Of a stretch of 32,452 bases of DNA, positions 6,497 through 31,570 are shown one piece after another. How positions within the stretch are numbered: position 1 is the stretch's first letter; every line of letters begins with the position of its first letter. The notes under the pieces are model-generated. The model did no database searches and was not told the DNA's origin. It worked only from the letters and a program-made list of their open reading frames with translations. Where the stretch lies: assembly GCA_009777815.1 (NCBI GenBank), contig WRLB01000015.1, forward strand, positions 1-32,452. The letters are read 5' to 3'. The DNA is from Bacteroidota bacterium. GTDB taxonomy: Bacteria > Bacteroidota > Ignavibacteria > Kapaibacteriales > UBA2268. Both the position numbers and the translations under genes were made by a program.

Positions 6497-6517
6497 AAGG
6501 TGGTTGCAAGACATTTT

Positions 6518-6541
6518 AACACGGGGAATAATCCCCGTGTT
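6518..6541 (+). terminator. Hairpin, putative terminator after LRR gene
   Basis: aacacgggga-ataa-tccccgtgtt followed by atatgttttttt. Confidence 0.65.
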
Positions 6542-6593
6542 ATATGTTTTTTTATCGTATATTTTCGTATTTTTGTGTAAAAACAAAATAAAA

Positions 6594-7907
6594 ATGAAAT
6601 CAACTGAAAACGAAAAGCAATATATTTACATAGTTCAGGCGTTGCTTGAGCCGTCAAAATGCAAAATAGGTGTAACTAAAAATCTTGAAAAAAGATTAAA
6701 AAGTTATAACAATATTACTGGTGTTTCCAAAGAAAATACTTACGAGTATTTATATACTTGCGAAGTTAAAGATATGCGGAAAGTGGAGAATGATATTAAA
6801 GAAGAGTATTATTTTGTTAGAGAGGATGTAAAAAAAGAAATATATTTATATACTGATGAATTGTTTAAAAAGATTGTTAATTTCATAAAATCACATAAAT
6901 TATTTGTAGAAGAAGTATTTATAAAAAAGGAAGTTAAACCCGAAGTAGAAAAAATAATAAAAATAGTAAAACGAACAACCCCGCCTCTTGATGAACGAGG
7001 AATAACACGCAAAGATGTAATGCAAAGCGCACAGAATATTGACAATGACGAGTTTTATACCCGCTATGAAGATGTTGAAAAAGAGTTGTCAATGTATGAT
7101 AAAAGTATTTGGAAAGACAAGGTTGTGTTTTGCAATTGTGATGATGCAGTTGATACTGATGAACGTAAAACATCGGCATTTGCTTTATATTTTTTATTAA
7201 ACTTTAAAGAACTTGATTTAAAGAAATTAATATGCACGCATTATGCAAATGCTGTGGATTTATTCAATCAGGGTCCAAAAGGTTATATTTATACTCGTGA
7301 ATTTACGAGGAATGGTTTCAAGGAATATACAGATTATCCGAGGGGTTACAATGGCAGTTTTGACCATCCATTGTCATTAAAAATACTCAACGAAGAAGCG
7401 GATATAGTATGCACTAATCCACCTTTTTCCAGAGCAATAGATTACTGGAAACTTCTTATAGAAAGTGGCAAGAAGTTTCTTATAATTTCAAATATAACAA
7501 ATGTTTTAAATACGGCATATATTCCATATTTTCAAGAAAATAAGGTATGGGCAGGTTATAATAGCGTAAATAATTATCTAAATCCTAAACGTCAACCAAC
7601 TGACGCAGCAGGTCATTGGTATACAAATTTTCCTGTAAAAGATAGACCAAAATACAAACTTCTAAAAATAATGCCATTAAAAAATATACCTGAAATTTAT
7701 AAAATATATGATGATTCTAAAACATTATTAGTAGATAATTGCTACATCCCAAGTAATTATAAGAAACCTTTTGCTGTATCTACTCGTTCAATATTAAATG
7801 GAATATTGGAAAAAGGATATAAAATCGTCAAAGAAAAACGATATGATCCCTATATAAAAGGTAAAAAGAAATTTGCAAGAGTGCTAATACAGAAAATAGA
7901 AAAATAA
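6594..7907 (+). CDS. GIY-YIG/T5orf172-like domain fused to EcoRI-type adenine-specific DNA methyltransferase
   Basis: N-term YIYIVQALLEPSKCKIGVTKNLEKRLKSYNN...VENDIKEEY; C-term NIDNDEFYTRYEDVEKEL, KVVFCNCDD, LKKLICTHY, ADIVCTNPPFSRAIDYWKLLIESGKKFLIISNITNVLN. Likely start ATG 6594 rather than tracked 6504. Confidence 0.8.
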   Translation: MKSTENEKQYIYIVQALLEPSKCKIGVTKNLEKRLKSYNNITGVSKENTYEYLYTCEVKDMRKVENDIKEEYYFVREDVKKEIYLYTDELFKKIVNFIKSHKLFVEEVFIKKEVKPEVEKIIKIVKRTTPPLDERGITRKDVMQSAQNIDNDEFYTRYEDVEKELSMYDKSIWKDKVVFCNCDDAVDTDERKTSAFALYFLLNFKELDLKKLICTHYANAVDLFNQGPKGYIYTREFTRNGFKEYTDYPRGYNGSFDHPLSLKILNEEADIVCTNPPFSRAIDYWKLLIESGKKFLIISNITNVLNTAYIPYFQENKVWAGYNSVNNYLNPKRQPTDAAGHWYTNFPVKDRPKYKLLKIMPLKNIPEIYKIYDDSKTLLVDNCYIPSNYKKPFAVSTRSILNGILEKGYKIVKEKRYDPYIKGKKKFARVLIQKIEK

Positions 7908-18552: not shown

Positions 18553-19158
18553 TTATTTTTTATCAAAATGTTGCCAATCTTTTATTTTTTTATAATTTCC
18601 GCCCCATTTCCATCCTAATTCTATAAATTTTTGTGTTATAGGAGAATCAATAGTTAATGTTCCAATAATTTTAGGATTATATTTATTCCCTCTTTTAGTA
18701 GTTCCTTTGGAGGTAATATATGGATTTTGCATAGGATTTATATCTATTGCTACGCCAAATGAATGATTAGATATTTTATTCGTTCCGCCTATTTTTCTAT
18801 AACAAAAAGCAGAAGTATTGTTATCGTCAATAGATAAATCATCATTCCAATCATATTTAACTATAGGAATACATTTTTCAACAGGAAATTTTTCTTTTTT
18901 TATTAGTTCAAAAATCTCTATAATATCATCTTTTACAGCAATATTTACGACTAATTGCCCTCTATGTAATTTATTATCAAACGAATAATATTCTACATCA
19001 ACAATTACCAATTGGTCTATGATATTTTTTGGAGCAGGAGTATTTTTTATTGCTTCTTCTAAAGTCATTTTAGAATCTATAATTATTCCAATATCATTTG
19101 AAACAGCAATTAAATTGCTTATGCAATGTATTATAAACACAAAAAAAAATACTTTCAT
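18553..19158 (-). CDS. M15-family (D-Ala-D-Ala carboxypeptidase-like) peptidase
   Basis: 201 aa; SNHSFGVAIDINPMQNPY and FIELGWKWGGNYKKIKDWQHFDKK, M15 zinc-ligand motifs. Confidence 0.85.
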   Translation of the reverse strand: MKVFFFVFIIHCISNLIAVSNDIGIIIDSKMTLEEAIKNTPAPKNIIDQLVIVDVEYYSFDNKLHRGQLVVNIAVKDDIIEIFELIKKEKFPVEKCIPIVKYDWNDDLSIDDNNTSAFCYRKIGGTNKISNHSFGVAIDINPMQNPYITSKGTTKRGNKYNPKIIGTLTIDSPITQKFIELGWKWGGNYKKIKDWQHFDKK

Positions 19159-19263
19159 AGTTTAGTTTTATATTTTAAAATATATGTCGAATTTATTTAG
19201 GCATCACGCAATTTTCTATATTTTAACACAGGAAACAAGCACCCCTATTGATATTTAATCTTA

Positions 19264-19417
19264 AATTATGTAAAAATTACATAAATCGGATGCGGAATAA
19301 TTAGTAACTTTTACTGCTTAAGCAGTAACTTTTACTGCTTAAGCAGTAACTTTTACTGCTTAAGCAGTAACTTTTACTGCTTTTTCAACATCCGTTTTAA
19401 GTAATTTTTACATAATT
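19264..19417. repeat. Inverted-repeat-bounded element enclosing 21-bp tandem palindromic repeats
   Basis: Perfect 17-bp termini aattatgtaaaaattac (19264-19280) / gtaatttttacataatt (19401-19417), extending imperfectly to about 35 bp; interior agtaacttttactgcttaagc x about 3.8 (19303-19382). Confidence 0.9.
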
Positions 19418-19454
19418 ACACATTTTTTAATACAAATAACACATTTATTTTATC

Positions 19455-19519
19455 GGGCTAAACTTATTTTGGCATCCTCTTTATTTTAATTATGAGATGC
19501 TGAAATAAGTTCAGCAGGA
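19455..19519. repeat. Dispersed palindromic repeat, diverged copy
   Basis: gggctaaacttattttggcatcctc ... gagatgctgaaataagttcagcagga. Confidence 0.7.
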
Positions 19520-19554
19520 CATATATTTATATCATATTTTTTTAATACTGGTGT

Positions 19555-20532
19555 TTATTTAATATCGTTCATAATAGTCGTAATTATTTCAGATGTAGAA
19601 ATATTTTCTGCTTCTGCATTAAAATTAGCAACTATTCTATGACGCATAACAGGGATAGCAACTGCTTTAATATCTTCAATTTCAGGCGTAAAACGTCCCT
19701 GTATAGCAGCAAGCGATTTAGCACCACGTATTAGATATTGCGATGCCCGAGGTCCTGCACCATACGATATGTATTTATTTACATAGCCAGAATTATTATT
19801 TGGACGCGTAGCACGGACTAAATTAACAGCATACTCCAATACATTATCAGCCACAGGAACTCGCTTAATTAAGGATTGGAAATCTAAAATTTCTTTCGCC
19901 GATATAATACTATTAACATTCGGATTATACTCTGTTGTAGTCATTCTAACAATATCAATTTCTTCGTTTTTTGACGGATAATCAAGCCAGATATTAAACA
20001 TAAATCTATCTAATTGTGCTTCAGGCAAGGGATACGTTCCTTCTTGCTCTATTGGATTTTGCGTAGCGAGGACAAAGAAAGGTTCTTCTAAAGTATATGT
20101 TTTTCCTGCAGCCGTTACTTCGTGTTCTTCCATTGCTTGCAATAGAGCGGATTGAGTTTTAGGTGGCGTTCTATTTATTTCATCGGCTAAAACAACATTA
20201 GCAAACACAGGTCCGGCAATAAATCTAAATGTTTTTTGTCCTGTAGAAATATTTTCTTCTATTACTTCTGTTCCACTAATATCACCTGGCATTAGGTCGG
20301 GTGTGAATTGGATTCTATTAAATTTTAGTTCCATTGTTTGTGAAAGTGTTCTAATTAGCAATGTTTTTGCTAATCCGGGAACACCAATTAAAAGGCAATG
20401 TCCTTTTGCAAAAAGCGAAACAAGAAGTTGTTCTATAATATCATCTTGTCCTATAATTACTTTTTTTAGTTCTGTTCTAATACTTTTTATTGCTTGCTGT
20501 AGTTCGGCAATTTTTTCTTTATCGTTTAGCAT
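19555..20532 (-). CDS. MoxR-type AAA ATPase
   Basis: 325 aa; GQDDIIEQLLVSLFAKGHCLLIGVPGLAKT (Walker A), VVLADEINRTPPKTQSALLQAMEE, VLATQNPIEQEGTYPLPEAQLDRF. Confidence 0.95.
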   Translation of the reverse strand: MLNDKEKIAELQQAIKSIRTELKKVIIGQDDIIEQLLVSLFAKGHCLLIGVPGLAKTLLIRTLSQTMELKFNRIQFTPDLMPGDISGTEVIEENISTGQKTFRFIAGPVFANVVLADEINRTPPKTQSALLQAMEEHEVTAAGKTYTLEEPFFVLATQNPIEQEGTYPLPEAQLDRFMFNIWLDYPSKNEEIDIVRMTTTEYNPNVNSIISAKEILDFQSLIKRVPVADNVLEYAVNLVRATRPNNNSGYVNKYISYGAGPRASQYLIRGAKSLAAIQGRFTPEIEDIKAVAIPVMRHRIVANFNAEAENISTSEIITTIMNDIK

Positions 20533-22820: not shown

Positions 22821-23358
22821 AAAAAAAACAGCAAAGCCGAAGCCCTGCTGTTAAAATTATTTAACTAAGTCTAAATTAAAAATTATTAAAAAAAAACTTA
22901 ACGCAAAAATACACTTTTTTCAAAAAATAAATAAAAAAAACAGCAAAGCCGAAGCCATGCTGTTAGAATTAGTTTTTTTACAAATAATAACTATTACAAA
23001 AATACACTTTTTTCTGTAAATAAAAAAAAACAGCAAAACCGACGCCCTGCTGTTAGAATTATGCTAAAAATAAAAATATACAATAAGCATTTTTTTATTA
23101 TTTACAAAAATACACTTTTTTCAAAAAATAAATAAAAAAACAGCAAAACCGAAAGCCCTGCTGTTAGGACACTTTGTTATTTACATTTTTTTATTTTACA
23201 AAAATACACTTTTTTTCTATAATAAAAAAAAACAGCAAAACCGAAGCTATGCTGTTAAAAACCATATGAAAAAAAAATTAAAAAAATTTTTTATCACCAC
23301 AAAAATACACTTTTTTCTATAAAAAAAACAGCAAAACCGAAGCCATGCTGTTAGAATT
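22821..23358 (-). repeat. Six-unit array of intrinsic-terminator hairpins alternating with TATTTTTG promoter-like boxes
   Basis: Hairpins at 22827-22852, 22939-22964, 23029-23054, 23139-23165, 23231-23256, 23327-23352. Minus-strand consensus AACAGCA-nGGC-TTCG-Gnnn-TGCTGTT followed by 7 or more Ts. CAAAAATACACTTTTTT between them (about 22903, 22996, 23104, 23198, 23299). Confidence 0.85.
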
Positions 23359-23480
23359 TATTAATAAAATAATAATAAACATATATTTGTAAAAAACAAT
23401 TTTATAGTTAAGTAAATGCTATGATTAAATATTTTTAGCATCAGCAAATTTATATTCGCAAAATATGGCAATTACATTTT

Positions 23481-28506: not shown

Positions 28507-29361
28507 ATGCTAAATGTAATAAAACAAGATAAATATAAATTTGTAGTTAATGATGTAGTTCGGCAAATTTTAATCAACGAACAACAACCAACTATAAATC
28601 CTATTTATAAAATTAAAGAAACAACTTTGTATAATGCTGATTGTTTGGATAGGAATTTGTTTGATACGCCATTTATTGATTTGGTTGTGACATCGCCGCC
28701 GTATAATGTTGGAATAGATTATAATTCTAATGATGATGAATTGGATTATGAGCAATATCTTGATTTTTCTGAAAAATGGCTTTCTAATTGTTATAAATGG
28801 AGTAATACAAATGGGCGTTTATGTATGAATATACCTTTGGATAAAAATAAAGGCGGGCATAGAGCAGTTGGTGCGGACTTAACTAAAATAGCACAAAAAG
28901 TAGGTTGGAAATATAAAACAACTATTATTTGGAACGAAGGAAATATTTCTCGGCGAACTGCTTGGGGAAGTTGGAAATCTGCTTCTGCTCCCGTAGTTAT
29001 TGCTCCTGTGGAACTAATAGTTGTTATGTATAAAGACGAATGGAAGAAAGTAAATGGCTCTAAAATATCAGATATAACAGCAGATGAGTTTAAAGAATGG
29101 ACTAATGGAGTTTGGATATTTAATGGTGAAAGTAAAAAAAGGATTGGACATCCTGCACCATTTCCAAAAGAACTTCCATATAGATGTATAAAATTGTTTA
29201 GTTATCAAAATGACTTAATATTTGATCCTTTTACGGGCAGTGGAACTACATTATTAATGGCTCAAAACTTAAATAGAAGGGCGATAGGTGTTGAAATAGA
29301 CACTAATTATTGTGAGTTAGCAAAAAATAGAATATTTTTAGAAACAAATACTATTATTTAA
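28507..29361 (+). CDS. Site-specific DNA methyltransferase (N4/N6 amino-MTase)
   Basis: 284 aa; VVTSPPYNVGIDY (motif IV) and FDPFTGSGTTLLMAQNLNRRAIGVEID (motif I). Confidence 0.93.
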   Translation: MLNVIKQDKYKFVVNDVVRQILINEQQPTINPIYKIKETTLYNADCLDRNLFDTPFIDLVVTSPPYNVGIDYNSNDDELDYEQYLDFSEKWLSNCYKWSNTNGRLCMNIPLDKNKGGHRAVGADLTKIAQKVGWKYKTTIIWNEGNISRRTAWGSWKSASAPVVIAPVELIVVMYKDEWKKVNGSKISDITADEFKEWTNGVWIFNGESKKRIGHPAPFPKELPYRCIKLFSYQNDLIFDPFTGSGTTLLMAQNLNRRAIGVEIDTNYCELAKNRIFLETNTII

Positions 29362-29364
29362 TTT

Positions 29365-29934
29365 ATGGGAAAAACAAAGTTTTCACAACAAGATTTAATA
29401 AAGTATCCAAAATGCAGTGTTTGTGAACAAATAATAGATAGAAAAATATTGACAATCATTGATGGTGATTGTTGGCGATGCAATAGACCAATGAAAATAG
29501 CATCTATTTCGTCGAGCAATGGACAAATGGTTCGTGGTTCTTCGAATATATCTCCTGCTGATTTTACACAAGATGAAATCCGTATTTCAGAATCAAAAGG
29601 TGTTATTTTAAAAGAACATTACAGTAATACTATGCAGTGTTATTATATAGCAAACACTTGCCAAAGTTGTGGCACATTTATAGGAGAGCATTATTTATTT
29701 ACTGAATATATTGCACCTGCATCTTGGGGTAATATGCATTCAGAATGTTTTGATATCGGTAATAATTATAATTGTGACTGGTGCTACTTACATATTGAAG
29801 AAAACATTGATTGGAAAAATTTAAACCAAACAGAGACAGCAAAGAAAATGTTTATTCACTTATACGAATTAACAAAAATAAAAGGTGAAACAACATTAAA
29901 CAATTTTGCAACAGATATATTAAAAGTGTTCTAA
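29365..29934 (+). CDS. Hypothetical Cys-rich (zinc-binding) protein
   Basis: 189 aa; four CxxC pairs CSVC, CWRC, CQSC, CDWC; starts 4 bp after the MTase stop. Confidence 0.65.
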   Translation: MGKTKFSQQDLIKYPKCSVCEQIIDRKILTIIDGDCWRCNRPMKIASISSSNGQMVRGSSNISPADFTQDEIRISESKGVILKEHYSNTMQCYYIANTCQSCGTFIGEHYLFTEYIAPASWGNMHSECFDIGNNYNCDWCYLHIEENIDWKNLNQTETAKKMFIHLYELTKIKGETTLNNFATDILKVF

Positions 29935-29993
29935 AAATATAATATAAACGGGCATCTTGATTGGAATAAGTAAAATATTAAAGAAAAATAAGT

Positions 29994-31067
29994 ATGTATA
30001 TAAAAGATAATAACATAATAGAAAAAGATATTAAAAGCGTTGCAAAAAATAACAATTTGCTGCTAAACAATAAAATAATATGCGGTGACTGTAATGAAGT
30101 GTTAGCATCTTTGCCAAGTGATAGTATAGATTTAATTATTACAAGTCCTCCATATTTTCAGCAAAGAGAATATTGTGGCAAAATAGGTATTGGTAATGAA
30201 TCAACTATTGACGAGTATATTGAAAATTTAATTAGCATATTTTATCAATGTGTTAGAGTGATAAAAAATACAGGTTCTGTTGTGTTCAATATAGGTGATA
30301 AGTATGTCAATGGTAGTTTATTGTTAGTTCCTTACAGATTTGCAATAGAAGCACAAAAAGAATATAGTGTTAAACTTATAAATGAAGTTATATGGCATAA
30401 AATTAATCCTACTCCCAAACAAGTTACGAACAAACTAATTCCTTCTAATGAACCTTTTTTTATTTTTACTAAATCTAATGATTACTATTTTAATAAAAAT
30501 GCTTTTTTAGAATATAAAGATAAATATTCTAATAAAAAAAAGAAAATAGGCAACGACATAGGTAAAAAATATTTTGAACTTATTGATAAATCAGATTTAT
30601 CAAAAGAGCAAAAAGAATTAGCAAAAAAAGAATTAAATAATGTAATAAAAGAAGTGAAAGATGGAACTATAGATAGTTTTAGAATGAAAATCAAAGGACT
30701 ACATGCTCTTCCATATGGAGGACAAGCAGGTGGCAGGTTAACACAAATAGAAAATAATGGTTTTACTATTATTAAAATATATGGTAATTCTATGCGTATG
30801 GATTTCATTGAATCTACGGTAGAATCTATTAAAGGTAATATACATCCTGCTGTTTTCCCTGAATTTGTTATTCAAGAATTTATTAAAATGTTAAGCAATG
30901 AGAATGATATTGTTCTAGATCCATTTGTAGGTTCAGGCACAACAGCAATTGCATCTAAAAAACTTAACAGAAAATACTTAGGAATAGATATCCATAAAGA
31001 ATATGTAGAATATGCAAATAAAAGAATTAATGAATGTAATACAGAATTAACGGAGATATTTATATGA
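29994..31067 (+). CDS. Site-specific DNA methyltransferase (N4/N6 amino-MTase)
   Basis: 357 aa; LIITSPPYFQQREYCGK (motif IV) and LDPFVGSGTTAIASKKLNRKYLGIDI (motif I). Confidence 0.93.
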   Translation: MYIKDNNIIEKDIKSVAKNNNLLLNNKIICGDCNEVLASLPSDSIDLIITSPPYFQQREYCGKIGIGNESTIDEYIENLISIFYQCVRVIKNTGSVVFNIGDKYVNGSLLLVPYRFAIEAQKEYSVKLINEVIWHKINPTPKQVTNKLIPSNEPFFIFTKSNDYYFNKNAFLEYKDKYSNKKKKIGNDIGKKYFELIDKSDLSKEQKELAKKELNNVIKEVKDGTIDSFRMKIKGLHALPYGGQAGGRLTQIENNGFTIIKIYGNSMRMDFIESTVESIKGNIHPAVFPEFVIQEFIKMLSNENDIVLDPFVGSGTTAIASKKLNRKYLGIDIHKEYVEYANKRINECNTELTEIFI

Positions 31068-31570
31068 ATGATGCATTTGAAATATTAGAAAATATATTAT
31101 TACAATCTAAAACAGAAAATAATAACTATCCAAGTATAGTTACTGAAAACATTGATATGTTGATTGAAAATATTGATAAAAATAAATCTGTTGTATTAGC
31201 ACTTATTACTTCTTTGTTAAAGAAAATTATAGAACCTAATCAAGATATTAGATTGCATAGAACAGATTTTAAAGATGGTTATTCGGCGAGAAGTTTAGAT
31301 ACTAATATTACTGTGCCATTTTTCAAAAAACATTTCCCAAAGTATGCTAATAAAGAAAGTAGTTTTCTTACTTTGGCTACAAGAGAAAAAGTTAAATGGA
31401 CATTAAAAGAAGGTAATGAATTAAAAATTAGAAATAAAAATGTAAAAAATAGTTTTCTTACTATATTAGATTCTATAGAGAATAAGTATATAAACCCACA
31501 TATAACTTTAGAGAATAGTTTGTTTTTTATATTAGAAAAATCGTATTTTTGTATGATTTATCTAAAATAA
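31064..31570 (+). CDS. Hypothetical; possible truncated type II restriction endonuclease
   Basis: 168 aa, overlaps MTase stop (ATGA); DIRLHRTDFKDGYSARSLDTNITVPFFKKHFPKYANKESSFLTLATR resembles N-terminal regions remembered from type II REases (unverified). Confidence 0.45.
   Translation: MNDAFEILENILLQSKTENNNYPSIVTENIDMLIENIDKNKSVVLALITSLLKKIIEPNQDIRLHRTDFKDGYSARSLDTNITVPFFKKHFPKYANKESSFLTLATREKVKWTLKEGNELKIRNKNVKNSFLTILDSIENKYINPHITLENSLFFILEKSYFCMIYLK

Follow-up and report, generated by a model that had tools for sequence, protein, structure and literature searches.

A dispersed intergenic repeat built around tandem 21-bp hairpin units, resembling BOX and BrickBuilt elements, in a bacterium of the Kapaibacteriales

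Introduction

The question raised by the locus described here is what kind of sequence places a run of short palindromes, framed by inverted repeats, between two bacterial genes. The locus lies in a 32,452-nucleotide stretch of DNA from a member of the Kapaibacteriales (Bacteroidota), and the whole of that stretch is referred to below as the window. An initial annotation described terminal inverted repeats around an array of 21-bp palindromes and offered three readings: a MITE-like element, a multi-site protein-binding array, or a structured RNA. Follow-up within the genome of origin (1.94 Mb in 121 contigs, 73% complete) indicates that the feature is probably a MITE-like modular repeat, non-coding and present at scattered sites, of the BOX/BrickBuilt type, with a hairpin module that expands locally in steps of 21 bp. 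The analysis covered a single strain, and movement and array-length change are inferred from copies within this one genome.

Results

Architecture of the Locus

The feature is non-coding and is flanked by two minus-strand open reading frames (ORFs): a M15 peptidase (PF13539) whose ORF ends at 19158, and a MoxR AAA ATPase whose ORF ends at 19555. Its 17-bp inverted repeats, AATTATGTAAAAATTAC and the perfect reverse complement of that sequence, enclose a shorter pair, CGGATG (19287–19292) and CATCCG (19389–19394). The array was reported by TRF with a 100% match and a score of 160, and three copies of the junction palindrome ACTGCTTAAGCAGT were located within it, at 19313, 19334, and 19355. Up to this point the initial annotation was accurate. 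Its placement of the element termini at the inverted repeats was not, as a larger conserved repeat (~19252–19447 in the window copy) encloses both of them, and other copies extend further left (Table 1).

Table 1. Features of the repeat and its immediate flanks, in window coordinates.
Feature	Position	Strand	Remarks
Degenerate REP half-site (CGTC/TGTC type), TGTCGAATTTATTTAGGCATCAC, to the left of the element	19185..19207	+	REP arm at the same position in most other copies
CACCCC junction	19240..19245	+	From copy comparison; the 22-bp left block TTATTTTACTATGTTTAGACGC is absent after CACCCC in the window copy
Left module TATTTAATCTTAAATTATGTAAAAATTACATAAATCGGATGCGGAATAATTA	19252..19302	+	Conserved among copies retaining the left side
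Left arm of 17-bp perfect inverted repeat	19264..19280	+	Subterminal, not the element end
21-bp palindromic units AGTAACTTTTACTGCTTAAGC, 3.8 copies	19303..19382	+	Complete hairpins GCAGTAACTTTTACTGC at 19322, 19343, and 19364
Right module, to the ...AATACAAATAACACATTTA boundary	19383..19447	+	Right boundary common to copies
Right arm of 17-bp inverted repeat	19401..19417	+	Missing in 4 of 14 copies
REP doublet, tail to tail, beside the right boundary	19452..19521	.	REP superfamily in PMC3733652

Structure in the window feature is far above chance expectation. The z-score for folding was −14.1 for one strand and −15.3 for the other, and none of 200 shuffled sequences folded as well. Strong folding into a single hairpin was obtained with several copies.

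Other features of the window can be recorded alongside. Tandem cassettes consisting of a terminator-like hairpin, AACAGCATGGCTTCGGTTATGCTGTTTTTTT, followed by a promoter-like sequence, GTGTATTTTTGTG, occur at 22904–23377 and at another locus (L138, 11240–11850), and on contig C5 five such cassettes in series precede a NuoA-like gene. A possible restriction-modification locus (28507–31570) comprises two genes for N6/N4 DNA methyltransferases and, alongside them, two small genes, while the segment at 6504–7907 encodes an N-terminal T5orf172 (GIY-YIG-like) domain fused to an EcoRI-type methylase domain.

Copies in the Genome and Their Distribution

A BLAST search of the region against its own genome, with each match read together with its flanks, yielded 14 core-bearing copies (contigs C15, C38, C53, C14, C27, C21, C32, C48, C5, C2, C12, C19, C6, and C49) and four remnants, for a total of 18 contigs. 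The sequence is therefore not a unique, non-conserved occurrence. One remnant has lost its core (C22) and three consist of the left end only (C91, C33, and C90). All copies are intergenic, with unrelated neighbor genes, mixed orientation relative to those genes, and gene pairs that may be divergent, convergent, or tandem. This scatter of copies with a common right boundary points to past spread of the element.

Beyond its own genome, the element was not found. A covariance model run over 149 genomes detected it in none of the 148 relatives, and the unit pattern was absent from the 53 other genomes among 54 of the family. Since the genus is represented by this single genome among those searched, the apparent restriction to a species may equally be a restriction to a genus. 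BLAST matches in the relatives were AT-rich fragments of 23–45 bp, plus one of 99 bp at 71% identity, and were taken as chance. Exact-pattern scans gave no match in viral contigs and a single, chance-like match in genome contigs, from a Lokiarchaeota MAG.

Modular Anatomy and Length Steps

Comparison of the copies resolves three parts. The left block has the order (REP arm or other short palindrome)–CACCCC–TTATTTTACTATGTTTAGACGC–TATTTAATCTTAAATTATGTAAAAATTACATTAATCGGATGCGGAATAATTAGT, with TTATTTTACTATGTTTAGACGC following CACCCC in most copies other than that of the window. The middle comprises 0–11 unit junctions at a spacing of 21 bp (22 bp throughout the C2 array and in part of C19), and the right block is CAGTATCCGATTCAAGTAATTTTTACATAATTACACATTTTTTAATACAAATAACANATTTA. 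In the ten copies that could be measured, core lengths between the TCTTAAATTATG and ATTTA marks were 147, 189, 189, 190, 210, 210, 210, 252, 252, and 252 bp; all but the 190-bp core are exact multiples of 21. Core GC content is 23–36%. Some of the 21-bp steps are duplications within the non-palindromic right block, such as GTATCCGTTACACATTTTTTA on C21, and the near-exclusive use of this step thus holds in palindromic and non-palindromic parts alike.

In the C22 remnant everything is missing between a pair of AATTACA words, one on either side of the hairpin. Loss of this kind is what would be expected of a hairpin at the replication fork, as in palindrome-stimulated deletion.

Alternative left ends were also observed. 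In some copies a GCTTACTT...AAGTAAGC palindrome replaces the REP before CACCCC (L138:11140–11205, L136, and L111:1990–2050), which suggests module swapping. A further dispersed palindrome, TAACACGGGGGCTTGCCCCCGTGTTA, with 14 matches in 285 kb, sometimes occupies the place of the left block (L132:4545, L135:9180, L129:3177, and other loci).

Inverted Repeats, Target Sites, and Transposases

The alternative closest to the initial description is a classical MITE, with the 17-bp inverted repeats as its ends (19264–19417), a DDE transposase acting in trans, and TA or similar sequences as targets. Most copies do carry long, near-perfect inverted repeats, a TA on the left and another on the right can be read as a target site duplication (TSD), and in the C19 copy the right side carries a left end in inverted orientation, which makes that copy symmetric. 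Nevertheless, likeness among the copies continues outside the inverted repeats on both flanks, so that these are not the boundaries, and the right arm is absent in four of the 14 copies (C21, C12, C6, and C49). At the apparent outer boundaries, a search for TSDs within the genome detected no excess of shared flank words: the longest word common to both flanks averaged 5.45, versus 5.22 for mispaired flanks.

A source of transposase was not apparent either. Searches of the 73%-complete genome for Y1 (PF01797), IS4 (PF01609), and IS110 (PF01548) enzymes gave nothing above cut-off, and no insertion sequence (IS) with element-like ends was found in it. A classical MITE is therefore unlikely.

Two candidate partners were set aside. 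Broken IS630-type elements (DDE_3), several of them at contig ends (L127:1–760, L128:5640–6330, L149:1–370, and L150:1–230), had come to attention through contig-end matches, but their ends, read in L127 and L150, are TATACTTTCCTCTGTCAT and unrelated to the element. A putative IS-type transposase gene (zinc-ribbon plus HTH) beside the C21 copy was judged a mere neighbor.

Flanking REP Palindromes

A very common palindrome, GTCATGCTGAACTTGTTTCAGCATC, single or in doublet form, is frequently found directly beside the element. With up to three mismatches allowed, this palindrome has 360 matches in the genome, and its distribution is patchy, with occurrences in 13 of 60 genomes searched. CGTC-tagged REPs are defined by a (C/T)GTC tag, a stem of 8–9 bp starting with AT, and a loop of 4–5 nt; they occur in many copies, frequently as dimers, have no dedicated tyrosine transposase, and have been reported in Bacteroidetes and Chlorobi (Di Nocera et al. 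2013, PMC3733652). The flanking repeat, GTC-ATGCTGAA-CTTGT-TTCAGCAT-C, has the tag, an 8-bp stem starting with AT, a 5-nt loop, many copies, and doublets, and no Y1 transposase was found in the genome; it fits this superfamily. The REPs adjoin the element, whereas the element itself is a separate and rarer repeat.

Unit Sequences and Hairpin Pairing

Units are more alike within loci (identity 0.93) than between them (0.75; permutation p = 0.0005). Despite this divergence the hairpin GCAGTnnnnnnnACTGC stays paired, with arms that read GCAGTAA/TTACTGC, GCAGGAA/TTCCTGC, GCAGTGG/CCACTGC, or GCAA/TTGC. Pairing was retained in 87.5% of cells versus 78.4% in shuffles, and double-sided changes numbered 11 cells versus 3.4; in counts that enter related units as separate sequences, neither observed value was reached in any of 500 shuffles. 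Because the units are related, such paired changes support selection on the hairpin without proving it, and templated correction of imperfect palindromes would yield an identical pattern.

A Genome-Wide Tandem Period of 20–21 bp

The period of the element recurs elsewhere in the genome. A 400-kb sample, taken without regard to the element, was examined for 8-mers that recur in DNA free of ORFs. Their density peaked at lags of 20 (99 per 10 kb) and 21 (47 per 10 kb), and stood at 0.9 and 0.2 for lags 19 and 22, respectively. Further peaks occur at 40–42 and 60–63, smaller ones, due to few segments, lie at 23 and 46, and TRF agrees with the 20–21-bp peaks. The signal derives from 17 intergenic segments at lag 20 and 13 at lag 21. 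When grouped by eye, the arrays with this period fall into about ten unrelated families (examples from sample loci L171–L190 are CCAATTATATAATTGCTTTT, GTAGGATTTTCTACTCATTAG, ACTTGAAATCAAGTGGAAATC, and TTGACGCGAAACGCCTTAAA), although independent events are fewer than arrays, since many of the arrays are members of shared dispersed families. Lag 20 gave 0.6 in G005 and 1.3 in G032, two relatives from the same taxonomic family, and lag 21 gave 3.7 and 7.7, respectively. A mixed sample of relatives gave 22 at lag 21, from four segments, and the habit may for this reason extend beyond the present genome.

Two general associations of these arrays were rejected. A general link to REPs did not hold (14 of 51 arrays near a REP, against an expected 24%), and palindromy is not a shared trait, as most of the other arrays are not strongly palindromic. 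A search of the literature on 21-bp or two-turn intergenic arrays returned nothing relevant.

The period common to about ten unrelated families, together with the nearly exclusive 21-bp steps in the length of the element, raises the idea of an active process or genome-wide constraint by which intergenic DNA is built, whatever its sequence, from modules two helical turns (20–21 bp) long. Behind it would stand either a duplicating enzyme whose footprint spans two turns or an architectural protein that accepts length changes only when they are in phase. This idea is put forward tentatively, as a possibility rather than an expectation.

Protein Binding and RNA Structure

A related alternative, and the second reading of the initial annotation, is a helically phased binding array, in which a 14-bp palindrome every 21 bp would align dimer sites along a single face of the helix, for a nucleoid-associated or regulatory protein. 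The lock at 21 bp, or two helical turns, is what such an array would show; the same period in other intergenic arrays of the genome agrees with it, and phasing of A-tracts (AA/TT) at the half-period in some units is a weak hint in the same direction. The spacing thus speaks for this reading and the sequences against it. The palindromes differ between loci while their pairing is kept, which argues against a single sequence-specific DNA-binding protein. Unit number is highly variable, orientation and neighbor genes are mixed, and strong dyads are lacking in most of the other 20–21-bp arrays. Overall, a binding array is improbable.

The third reading, a structured RNA or attenuator that acts in cis from untranslated regions, would account for hairpins predicted to be very stable on both strands, and could form wherever the element is transcribed. 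In contrast, no Rfam family scored above its gathering cut-off, the copies take both orientations and lie in divergent, convergent, and tandem gene pairs with no neighbor genes in common, and unit number is not conserved, all of which makes this reading very unlikely. Finally, repeats in draft genomes are prone to mis-assembly, and this genome is in 121 contigs, but an artefact is scarcely credible given an 80-bp array shorter than a usual short read and copies on separate contigs that differ in unit sequences and flanks.

Discussion

Among the three initial readings, a MITE-like element fits best. The element shares with MITEs its short length (cores of 147–252 bp), AT-richness, lack of coding sequence, hairpin, multiple copies, and intergenic location. 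What was looked for and not found were inverted repeats at its ends, a TSD signal at the apparent outer boundaries, and, among the families searched, a partner IS with matching ends. It resembles IS-derived MITEs such as Correia, RUP, and Nezha in being short, AT-rich, non-coding, and multicopy with inverted repeats. It differs from them in its internal tandem array of palindromes, in inverted repeats that are not terminal, and in having no partner IS that could be found.

Closer parallels are provided by repeats with a variable number of tandem middle units between two conserved end blocks, which is the architecture of the present element. The BOX elements of Streptococcus pneumoniae are dispersed and modular (boxA-boxBn-boxC), fold into stem-loops, and cluster with and insert into other small repeats (Croucher et al. 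2011, PMC3049150). The present element is similar in its end blocks, middle units, stem-loops, dispersal, and clustering with small repeats, whereas its middle unit is a 21-bp palindrome in place of boxB, its host is distant, and neither a TSD nor a partner IS was found for it; the likeness described here is one of architecture.

BrickBuilt, a MITE of Porphyromonas gingivalis, carries a 23-nt minisatellite and is known from about 19–20 intergenic copies within a single species (Klein et al. 2015, PMC4596501). Leader and tail blocks, predicted long stem-loops, IS5-like terminal inverted repeats (TIRs) at its ends, and a TSD deduced from an empty site at one locus have been described, and the original report gave no BLASTN match outside the species (PMC4596501). 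The two elements are alike in their intergenic copies within one species, in the end blocks that frame a tandem minisatellite with units about two helical turns long, and in their predicted stem-loops. Their sequences differ, and the units of the present element are themselves 21-bp palindromes. Moreover, the IS5-type TIR of BrickBuilt, GAGACCTTCGCA, was absent from the element ends when these were read directly against the TIR as printed (PMC4596501), no TSD was found, and the present element abuts CGTC REPs.

By analogy, then, the element works like BOX and, above all, like BrickBuilt, with no family membership by sequence being claimed. It is new in sequence and of a known type in architecture. 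Of the defining features of MITEs, two (inverted repeats at the ends and a partner IS) were not found.

For a modular repeat of the BOX/BrickBuilt type, the following course of events would account for the copies. Within one lineage, the element would have spread by copying to about 18 intergenic sites, in many cases together with CGTC-type REP palindromes as a composite. Once inserted, the run of hairpins would have been lengthened or shortened locally by whole steps of 21 bp, and in some cases the right block would have gained or lost 21-bp pieces. Slipped or hairpin-templated replication, or unequal recombination, is the probable mechanism. Such local growth and shrinkage would keep the arms of each unit complementary and the units alike within a locus. 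Effects on neighboring genes, if any, would be passive and exerted through a strong hairpin in transcripts or in DNA.

Next to BOX and BrickBuilt, the element is a further example of a small bacterial repeat, dispersed in its genome, that has a tandem minisatellite at its center, in this instance with hairpin units, and it offers a clean example of hairpin arms that change together. It is also tied to CGTC REPs, the spread of which is an open question in the literature. If the 20–21-bp lock proves general, it would become possible to test which of two factors, helical phasing or a duplicating enzyme, determines the unit length of bacterial minisatellites.
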